Below are positions 53,960 through 55,422 of a DNA stretch of 64,000 nucleotides, in pieces. The stretch is from assembly GCA_023666425.1 (NCBI GenBank), contig JAMPCA010000008.1, positions 1-64,000 on the forward strand, written 5' to 3'. Source of the stretch: Muribaculaceae bacterium (GTDB lineage Bacteria > Bacillota > Clostridia > Lachnospirales > Lachnospiraceae). Position numbers and translations under genes: made by a program. Numbering within the stretch: position 1 is the stretch's first letter; each line of letters opens with the position of its first letter. The notes under the pieces are model-generated. The model was given only the letters and a program-made list of their open reading frames with translations. It ran no database searches and was not told the origin of the DNA.

Positions 53960-53971
53960 GGGATTTGAATA

Positions 53972-54000
53972 TTGACTTTCTTTTCTGCAAATGCTATATT
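53972..54000 (+). promoter_or_regulatory. Promoter of the GNAT-X-SecB cassette
   Basis: TTGACT (53972-53977), 17-bp spacer, TATATT (53995-54000), about 60 bp before the GNAT start. Confidence 0.65.
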
Positions 54001-54059
54001 TGATACACGAAACGATACAGAGGATTTTTTGGGGGCTGCAAAAGGACATAAGGCAGGGA

Positions 54060-54605
54060 ATGGGGACATTAGAGTTTACGAGGGTGACGAGAGATGTGGA
54101 GCAGTCCGATTTTGACTGTGGGGTTGCATCGATCAATCAATATGTTAAAGAGTCTTATTTTCCTACCATTGCACAGCATGCATATGCCTATGCGGTTATG
54201 GCAAGGGGAACGATTGTCGGTTATTATATGCTGATGTTCCGGGAGATAGAGCTGGAAATTTTTCCGGAGGAGATTGCAGAGATAGATCCGGGCATTAAGG
54301 ATGAAAGGCTTTCGGCTGTTCATATCCGGTATCTGGCGATTGATAAGCGGTACCAGGGCAATAAAATTGGAACCAGTGTCCTGCATGTGGTGATGAAGCA
54401 GATTGAGGATCTGGCAGGACAATGGCCGATCCGGGTCATCACGATCGATGCCAGGGAAGATTTACTGGACTGGTATGCGCGGGAGGGATTTCGGCGGATG
54501 TTAAAAAACAGTCCGGGGCAGGATGGAATTACGACGGCGATGTTCTTTGACTGTATGAAGTTTTCAGGGGAGCTTGCCGATTATATCAATGAAAACTGTA
54601 TGTGA
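54060..54605 (+). CDS. GNAT-family acetyltransferase (possible TacT-like toxin)
   Basis: A 181-aa N-acetyltransferase. The layout resembles the TacT/AtaT group: an N-terminal FDCGVASINQYVK segment, beta strands AYAVMARGTIVGYYML, the acetyl-CoA loop RYLAIDKRYQGNKIGTSVL (RxxGxxxG) and the C-terminal DWYAREGFRRM with a Tyr in the usual catalytic place. TacT-like toxins acetylate charged tRNA and pair with ribbon-helix-helix antitoxins, but no such antitoxin is seen here. Instead an unknown protein and a SecB-like chaperone follow, 20 nt and then 10 nt apart. It could also be an ordinary acetyltransferase. Lower GC than the ABC genes. Confidence 0.78.
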   Translation: MGTLEFTRVTRDVEQSDFDCGVASINQYVKESYFPTIAQHAYAYAVMARGTIVGYYMLMFREIELEIFPEEIAEIDPGIKDERLSAVHIRYLAIDKRYQGNKIGTSVLHVVMKQIEDLAGQWPIRVITIDAREDLLDWYAREGFRRMLKNSPGQDGITTAMFFDCMKFSGELADYINENCM

Positions 54606-54625
54606 ATTGAGCGGGGAGGGAGACT

Positions 54626-54997
54626 ATGCGTGAACAGAGAGTGGGAACCATTTATTTATCAGGAGAAGAGGCTCTTAGCTTCGCAAATTCGCTGTTTAGA
54701 CCGACGAAAGAGGCCGTAGAAGTACATGATGCGCGAATGAGCCGGATTGAGGACAGTGTAGTGATTCATCAGAATGAAAACGGCTTTTCCGCGGAGGTTT
54801 CTGACCTGGATCTGTCTTTCATGGATCAGGGAGCGGGGGAAGAGTCTTTGGAGTTTCAGGTGACAATGAAGATTCGATGCTCCGGGATCTTTTTTTCAAG
54901 TATGATGAATCCGATTGCACAGACGATTGTCTGCGTGAAAGAACAGACAGAGTATTGCGGCTTGCTTTCAGATGGCAGTATGAGCGTAGCGGCATAG
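54626..54997 (+). CDS. Unknown 123-aa protein between GNAT and SecB-like genes
   Basis: I do not recognise this protein. It starts MREQRVGTIYLSGEEALSFA, has no membrane segment, is acidic, and looks mainly beta-stranded after residue 40 (DSVVIHQNENGFSAEVSDLD, then FQVTMKIRCSGIFFSS). Several Cys are present without a zinc-site pattern. It lies 20 nt behind the GNAT gene and 10 nt ahead of the SecB-like gene, in an operon-like row. If the cassette is a toxin-antitoxin-chaperone module, this would be the antitoxin candidate, but there is no DNA-binding motif to support it. A good RBS (GGGGAGGGAG) precedes the ATG. Confidence 0.75.
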   Translation: MREQRVGTIYLSGEEALSFANSLFRPTKEAVEVHDARMSRIEDSVVIHQNENGFSAEVSDLDLSFMDQGAGEESLEFQVTMKIRCSGIFFSSMMNPIAQTIVCVKEQTEYCGLLSDGSMSVAA

Positions 54998-55007
54998 GAT
55001 GGGAATT

Positions 55008-55400
55008 ATGAAGAATAGTGCATTTCAGTTCAGTAGCCCGGCATTGACAGATTTGAGATTTGTAATCAATGAGGGCTTTATGGGAAAAGAGAATCAGGAG
55101 GCCTCCATTCGGATGAATATAGCCGTTTCGATTCACAGAGAGGAGAATGCAAGCGAGGCGGTTGTCTCGTTGAGGATTGAGATTGGCGAGCCTGGCGAGC
55201 TGGTTCCTTTCCATATATGTGCGACGGAAAGTGCGGGTTTTCGCTGGGAAGCGGATCTGCAGGAGGCAAATGTGGACAATTTGTTAAATCAGAATGCCCC
55301 GGCGCTTCTGTTGTCCTATCTGCGTCCGGTCATTACACAGATTACGGCCGCTTCACCTTATGAAGCATACAATATACCATTTGTAAATTTCAAAAAATAA
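55008..55400 (+). CDS. SecB-like chaperone
   Basis: A 130-aa protein of the SecB fold. Seen are the N-terminal NSAFQFSSPALTDLRFVINE, the long amphipathic beta strands and above all the C-terminal helix block VDNLLNQNAPALLLSYLRPV followed by ITAASPYEAYNIPFVNFKK, which mirrors the SecB pattern (P-A-LL-Y-R-P-I, then PP-N-FVNF). Firmicutes lack the general SecB export chaperone, and solitary SecB-like genes in other bacteria often belong to toxin-antitoxin-chaperone systems. That makes the two genes upstream interesting. ATG 55008 has AGGATGGGA in front; an ATG at 54999 is possible. Confidence 0.78.
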   Translation: MKNSAFQFSSPALTDLRFVINEGFMGKENQEASIRMNIAVSIHREENASEAVVSLRIEIGEPGELVPFHICATESAGFRWEADLQEANVDNLLNQNAPALLLSYLRPVITQITAASPYEAYNIPFVNFKK

Positions 55401-55422
55401 CAGGGAGGGGCGCCCCTCCCTG
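55401..55422. terminator. GC-rich hairpin, terminator for the minus-strand gene
   Basis: The perfect palindrome CAGGGAGGGGC/GCCCCTCCCTG is flanked by a run of A on its left, that is TTATTTTTT on the minus strand. It ends the L,D-transpeptidase gene and may also block read-through from the SecB-like gene. Confidence 0.8.

Follow-up and report, generated by a model that had tools for sequence, protein, structure and literature searches.

Closest described systems

The described systems nearest to the locus reported here are toxin-antitoxin-chaperone (TAC) modules, above all CmdTAC of E. coli ECOR22, the name given to PD-T4-9 by its finders, in which the antitoxin sequence varies widely (PMC9519451; the PMC articles are cited here from parts of their text). 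Its antitoxin CmdA is described as two N-terminal helices followed by a long unstructured C-terminal domain with an LAA end like those of other TAC antitoxins, and it is degraded in a ClpP-dependent manner unless the chaperone CmdC is present (PMC11618068). The competitor for the chaperone is a T4 capsid protein in CmdTAC (PMC11618068) and a lambda tail protein in HigBAC (PMC11980606). We analysed a window of 64,000 nt, the whole stretch from position 1 to 64,000 of contig JAMPCA010000008.1 (Muribaculaceae bacterium, Lachnospiraceae in the GTDB lineage; assembly GCA_023666425.1, 2.74 Mb in 28 contigs). It carries a cassette in which genes for a candidate GNAT toxin, a 123-aa middle protein that we call X and a SecB-like chaperone follow one another, and we propose that the three form a mobile TAC module.

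The cassette resembles CmdTAC in its toxin-antitoxin-chaperone order, in a SecB-like chaperone that matches the PD-T4-9_C profile, and in a middle protein of highly variable sequence, a trait also reported for CmdTAC (PMC9519451), with a predicted disordered tail that ends in Ala-Ala. The predicted structure of X likewise resembles the published description of CmdA (PMC11618068), and relatives of the window chaperone stand beside CmdT-like toxins. In contrast, the toxin candidate is a GNAT acetyltransferase whereas that of CmdTAC is an ADP-ribosyltransferase, this candidate has no match to PD-T4-9_A, and X showed no detectable sequence kinship to five aligned CmdA-like middle proteins (hhalign probability 2.8).

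HigA and MqsA antitoxins carry a helix-turn-helix (HTH) domain. Homologues of these ordinary antitoxins serve HigBAC (HigBA-SecB; mycobacterial Rv1955-Rv1957) and MqsRAC, whose toxins are mRNases; X matches none of them, and the likeness lies in the three-gene module and, as proposed here, in an antitoxin that depends on a chaperone (PMC11980606, PMC9519451). The toxins of the type II GNAT-DUF1778 systems TacAT, KacAT and AtaRT share their fold, an N-terminal FDCG motif and the catalytic Tyr with the candidate. Their antitoxin, however, is a DUF1778 ribbon-helix-helix (RHH) protein, encoded upstream of the toxin in two plasmid cases of the four looked at, and no chaperone is described for them, whereas the middle protein of the cassette has no RHH match, lies downstream of the GNAT gene and is accompanied by a chaperone. 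An earlier note on this DNA, made from the sequence alone, had held that GNAT toxins pair with RHH antitoxins; this is true of the DUF1778 pairs, but DUF4065 antitoxins are known as well (PMC9177977). The GNAT-DUF4065 pairs resemble the cassette in joining a GNAT toxin to an antitoxin other than DUF1778, yet X has no DUF4065 match and the parts of PMC9177977 available mention no chaperone for them. The same survey reported GNAT-toxin homologues to be almost absent from Firmicutes and found toxin-antitoxin-like loci with unidentified antitoxins outside its true toxin-antitoxin clade (PMC9177977). Judged from sequence and structural models, the cassette would be a TAC by architecture with a GNAT toxin by fold, and neither a TacAT pair nor CmdTAC.

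Layout and insertion of the cassette

The features of the cassette are listed by window position.

53962..55401, + strand: whole cassette, an insertion of ~1,440 bp (1.44 kb) with a promoter-like site and three genes, delimited by blastn against the sister species (L097)
53972..54000, + strand: promoter-like site TTGACT-17-TATATT with TG ahead of the second hexamer, score 10/12
54060..54605, + strand: toxin candidate of 181 aa, a TacT/KacT/AtaT-like GNAT acetyltransferase whose catalytic Tyr139 lies in WYxxxGF
54626..54997, + strand: antitoxin candidate X, 123 aa, predicted to be folded towards its N terminus (about residues 12-60) and to have a disordered C-terminal tail
54989..54994, + strand: terminal Ala-Ala codons of X, a proposed ssrA-like ClpXP degron
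55008..55400, + strand: TAC-type SecB-like chaperone of 130 aa
55401..55422, no strand assigned: right-junction inverted repeat, rich in GC, that resembles a terminator on the - strand; the empty site has a similar repeat

As the earlier note had described, the three open reading frames (ORFs) lie on one strand in a tight row, with gaps of 20 nt between the GNAT gene and X and of 10 nt between X and the chaperone gene, for which a start at 55008 was preferred over 54999 on the evidence of relatives. One promoter had been placed ahead of the row; a promoter-like site does sit at the start of the insert, but the scan as a whole found 4 sites vs 2.5 ± 1.4 in shuffled sequences and is not above chance. 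X is acidic, as had been noticed (computed isoelectric point (pI) 4.5), though the GNAT protein (4.8) and the chaperone (4.9) are acidic too. The row was also said to be more AT-rich than its neighbours, and it is: GC is 0.463 in the insert vs 0.546 and 0.559 in the flanks, and GC at third codon positions is 0.50-0.54 vs 0.70-0.71.

The flanks of the cassette are 94% identical, over 3,977 and 3,599 aligned bases, to those in a genome of the same genus (G446, locus L097), from which precisely 53962-55401 is missing, an interval that the earlier note had nearly matched with 53972-55400. Window position 53961 meets position 5215 of L097 and 55402 meets 5212, so that four bases (AGGG) are common to both junctions. 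A similar repeat in the empty site marks the one at 55401-55422 as host sequence. No recombinase-like gene was found within the insert. Four further genomes of the genus (L098-L101) again have the ABC-transporter gene (named by eye) next to the L,D-transpeptidase gene, and the stretches taken from them showed no match to any of the three proteins of the cassette; in L100 the two genes are separated by ~320 bases of other sequence. To judge from these alignments, the three genes were inserted as a single unit.

The three proteins

Gene 1 matches the Pfam GNAT family PF13673 (27.9 bits vs a cut-off of 23.6). All 18 of the best-matching Protein Data Bank (PDB) entries for its predicted fold are bacterial toxins; the best fold and profile matches are GNAT toxins, mostly titled tRNA-acetylating or named TacT, AtaT, KacT or GmvT, and the fold is of the toxin type of the TacT/KacT/AtaT family. 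Tyr139 aligns with AtaT Y144 and KacT Y145, two residues named as mutated among the PDB matches, and the catalytic tyrosine is present in 9/9 aligned GNATs. Profile and predicted fold agree with the earlier view of gene 1 as TacT-like, and both indicate a GNAT of the toxin kind. Because X matches neither DUF1778 RHH nor DUF4065 (0/9 X proteins scanned, of 11 known, at E 0.05), gene 1 would be a GNAT toxin by fold but not one half of a TacAT-type pair.

X gave nothing above the Pfam or NCBIfam cut-offs and nothing better than E 0.08 across four libraries. The profile check that the earlier note had suggested for it returned no recognised family or fold, nor any known DNA-binding domain; what emerged was the Ala-Ala end and a predicted tail. 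In the structural model, a stretch from about residue 12 to 60 forms two helices and two strands, and from about residue 68 the chain is an unstructured tail. The host transfer-messenger RNA tag, AEDNLAYAA, ends in Ala-Ala as X does, and ClpX is encoded in the host.

An Ala-Ala end was found in the middle protein of 34/36 cassettes (exceptions L046 and L048; 34/37 if L031 is counted, where the upstream ORF has no Ala-Ala end and was not recognised as a partner), in 0/35 toxins and in 0/36 chaperones, a count in which some gene starts were set by alignment and the selection of upstream genes favours Ala-Ala enders when choosing the next search point; in the loci counted thereby, the chosen middle protein is the longest candidate. 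Among other ORFs of the same loci the figure is 4/378 (Fisher 6e-43, a guide only since the cassettes are related). Left out were loci that are broken, fused or partial (L050, L052, L054, L056, L110 and L022) and copies (L104, L105, L108 and L016-L021). Ten of the 11 GNAT loci have the Ala-Ala end. When nine X proteins were aligned, the other eight being 15-36% identical to that of the window, the only invariant columns were one Glu and the two terminal alanines; in five aligned CmdA-like proteins, two of the five invariant columns are the last two. With a predicted disordered C-terminal tail and a ClpXP-type end, X appears from sequence and model to bear the marks of a TAC antitoxin, and we consider it probable that X is the antitoxin and ClpXP its protease. 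Separately, in the X gene of L033 (3968-4474) the segment bearing the DLDLSF motif is repeated in tandem.

Gene 3 encodes a protein that Pfam assigns to SecB (PF02556, 30.5 bits vs a cut-off of 26), as it does all nine relatives scanned (10/10 in total); the NCBIfam cut-offs for export SecB were not reached by the window chaperone. The PADLOC profile PD-T4-9_C matched it at E 1.5e-5 and four relatives from GNAT-type loci at 2.1e-6 to 2.5e-11. A SecB-family chaperone gene thus stands in the same operon-like row as X. It is the only SecB gene in the host genome, and since a match is missing in 58/59 other genomes of the genus (half of them <90% complete or >5% contaminated), it is not a conserved export chaperone of that genus. 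Including the window's own, 2/60 same-genus genomes have a match; of the 30 with completeness of 90% or more and contamination of 5% or less, the window's own is the sole one. In the second genome, G434, a SecB-like gene stands with an ADP-ribosyltransferase-like gene (named by eye) and a gene for a 69-aa protein whose end is FLAA, a CmdTAC-like cassette (L102 3753-5004). The earlier note had thought a SecB-like protein out of place in a Firmicute; this view was not sustained, as SecB-like genes have been reported there, and SecB outside the alpha-, beta- and gamma-proteobacteria is mostly linked to toxin-antitoxin systems (PMC4257090).

The toxin slot beside related chaperones is variable. 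PD-T4-9_A (CmdT) was matched by 3/3 ADP-ribosyltransferase-like proteins scanned. Chaperones with the same class of toxin cluster on a tree of 36 chaperones (10 changes vs a shuffled mean of 19.1; 0/200 shuffles as low), in which only 9/33 inner branches have good support. Three findings support the TAC interpretation that the earlier note had put forward: the family of the chaperone, the variety of toxins next to its relatives and the Ala-Ala terminus of the middle protein. We regard a TAC architecture as very probable.

Recurrence of the gene order

A chaperone profile built from seven sequences found 31 loci in 84,980 species and, in a separate search of viral contigs, 9. The genes upstream of the chaperone matches give the order GNAT-X-chaperone at 11 distinct loci, namely the window, L026, L027, L028 (close to L027), L029, L030, L033, L035, L041, L103 (identical in L104 and L105) and L122. 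The GNAT and 123-aa genes therefore do travel with SecB-like genes, the co-occurrence for which the earlier note had asked and whose absence it had named as a refutation. At L026 X and the chaperone are intact, but the GNAT is truncated to 125 aa, without its catalytic end. Among 397 genomes of the family the chaperone was found in 10 and X in 4 (the window's own included), each of the four X genes adjoining a chaperone gene; X is under-counted here and its absence counts are weak, since the single-sequence search missed an X that is present in G272. A profile search for X in 392 genomes of the order returned the window only. The GNAT-X-chaperone cassette is rare.

Proposed mechanism and alternative explanations

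We propose, with a probability of roughly 0.8, that the three genes are a mobile tripartite TAC module whose toxin is a GNAT acetyltransferase and which would work as follows; the toxicity of the cassette, its tRNA target, degradation by ClpXP and the phage trigger are here modelled by analogy on the described systems. In a healthy cell, the chaperone would bind the disordered tail of X and mask its Ala-Ala end from ClpXP, and the folded N-terminal half of X would then silence the GNAT. X would be degraded if the chaperone were drawn off, the likeliest competitor being a structural protein of a phage, as it is for CmdTAC and HigBAC. The freed GNAT would acetylate aminoacyl-tRNA, translation would stop and the infection would be aborted.

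Besides the under-count of X, several observations weigh against this proposal. The model of X is poor (predicted local distance difference test score, pLDDT, 51) and has no fold match, and at one GNAT locus, L122, X ends in KSA (Ser-Ala) rather than Ala-Ala. In a more distant phylum set only 11/18 middle proteins end in Ala-Ala, some of them HTH-like antitoxins (by eye) ending GEAA, a count that includes near-copies (L125-L127 and L129; L136, L137 and L139) and an L129 chaperone gene with an internal stop and leaves out L138 and four weak matches. The chaperones of GNAT loci do not form one supported clade, although a single origin is still compatible with the tree. No recognised defence gene was found among the few neighbours scanned at L026, L029 and L035. 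PADLOC scans of four genes around the window cassette matched two ABC-transporter genes to mad3/mad8 models only and gave nothing for the other two; as the mad3/mad8 matches are taken to reflect shared ATPase domains, no defence island is seen at the window. Finally, the nine intact GNATs for which a pI was computed are acidic (4.8-6.0), which does not favour a tRNA substrate.

The last point bears on the substrate. The acetyl-CoA motif of GNAT proteins is QxxGxG, and several rows of the alignment depart from it (QGNKIGT, QRHKIGT); together with the acidic pI, this would suit a TAC module whose GNAT acetylates a protein, a metabolite or X itself instead of aminoacyl-tRNA. Yet the closest matches of the GNAT, by fold as by profile, are toxins mostly titled tRNA-acetylating or bearing the names of such GNAT toxins, so that aminoacyl-tRNA is somewhat favoured as the target and another substrate seems rather unlikely. 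It is also conceivable, though we lean against it, that the TAC module serves addiction or a stress response, stabilising itself or a mobile element, and has no phage trigger. The cassette travels as a unit, at L035 it adjoins conjugation genes for a MobL relaxase and a TraG-type protein, no recognised defence gene adjoins it in the window, and the mycobacterial TAC has been termed stress-responsive (in titles cited in PMC11618068). On the other hand, close relatives of the chaperone serve CmdT-like toxins, and MqsRAC, an unrelated TAC, also guards E. coli against a phage (PMC9519451). Moreover, defence genes adjoin three of the six GNAT loci for which neighbours were listed, namely GajA with a GajB fragment at L103 and JetA3 at L027 and its kin L028. 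At L103 (581-10281, a viral contig) the cassette lies between two serine recombinases on one side and, on the other, the GajA gene with the short N-terminal GajB fragment and a phage integrase. As far as gene neighbourhood can suggest a function, the defence genes beside some loci favour a defence role; we judge the chances of phage defence being the main role to be evenly balanced.

A house-keeping acetyltransferase might stand by accident beside an unrelated export SecB, both being common folds, but the recurrence of the order at 11 loci, an insertion that comprises exactly the trio, a single SecB gene in the genome with matches missing in 58/59 other genomes of the genus, and a GNAT whose first matches are toxins make this very improbable. 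A further alternative concerns the roles within the trio. CmdT depends on CmdA for its folding and accumulation, and the two together are toxic (PMC11618068, PMC9519451), so X could be a co-factor of the toxin rather than an antidote, with a toxin that folds only in its presence, or the chaperone could itself be the antitoxin. However, in CmdTAC the middle protein does neutralise when it has the chaperone or when ClpP is missing (PMC11618068), and X carries a degron-like end; we consider such a division of roles improbable. Given that CmdT needs CmdA, the middle protein may serve as both co-factor and antidote.

Other toxins beside related chaperones

In our search of the open-access literature no paper turned up that pairs a GNAT with a SecB-like chaperone; a prior mention may stand in Sala 2013 or Mets 2024, which lie beyond its coverage. 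PMC4366850 contains both GNAT and SecB-like terms, the latter, in the parts available, in its reference list only. The earlier claim of a module of a new kind therefore needs dividing: the GNAT-chaperone combination was not found described, but the module belongs to the known TAC kind.

Toxin candidates other than CmdT-like and GNAT proteins occupy the same slot. The one at L032 is RelE-like (below the Pfam cut-off). At L046 (1089-2432) and L051 (3720-4911; below the Pfam cut-off) a HEPN protein, a middle protein and a SecB-like chaperone follow one another, and these are possibly HEPN-type TAC systems. A further, unnamed family comprises proteins of 141-195 aa, each with a 185-292-aa partner (Ala-Ala end in 12/13) and then a SecB-like gene, at L034 (3137-4935), L036, L042, L043, L045, L048, L049, L055, L106, L107, L109, L023 and L025. 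Its 12 aligned members share an invariant Arg, a YSTS-like stretch and HVDWW, an Arg/STS pattern that may resemble that of ADP-ribosyltransferases; the two members scanned had no Pfam or PADLOC match, and the family profile had no significant PDB match.

These loci suggest a wider view, to which we give an even chance: a SecB-like chaperone and an Ala-Ala-tailed middle protein would be a general phage-sensing front end in Firmicutes to which unrelated toxins are swapped in. Here it would arm an aminoacyl-tRNA acetyltransferase, which would be the first acetyltransferase toxin with chaperone addiction, and one triggered by phage, and the same front end would also carry at least one toxin family of unknown fold. 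If the cassette itself has been read correctly, acetyltransferases would join the effectors armed by TAC systems, GNAT toxins would enter the Firmicutes, said to be almost devoid of them (PMC9177977), and a further kind of GNAT antitoxin would stand beside DUF1778 and DUF4065. At least four other types of toxin are found beside related chaperones, so whether chaperone and degron tail together act as an exchangeable sensor becomes a testable question. The cassette measures only 1.44 kb, brings a promoter-like site of its own and has the empty site as a control, which should make it easy to transfer to laboratory strains.

Two loci depart from the usual three-gene form. At L037 (4132-4923, Listeria farberi) a middle protein ending QGAA and a SecB-like gene have no toxin directly upstream, and a 213-aa ORF lies ~450 bases before them. 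At L050 (3940-4812) the partner and the SecB-like protein form one open frame of 290 aa with the junction at the partner's YLSAA end, which looks like a deletion fusion.
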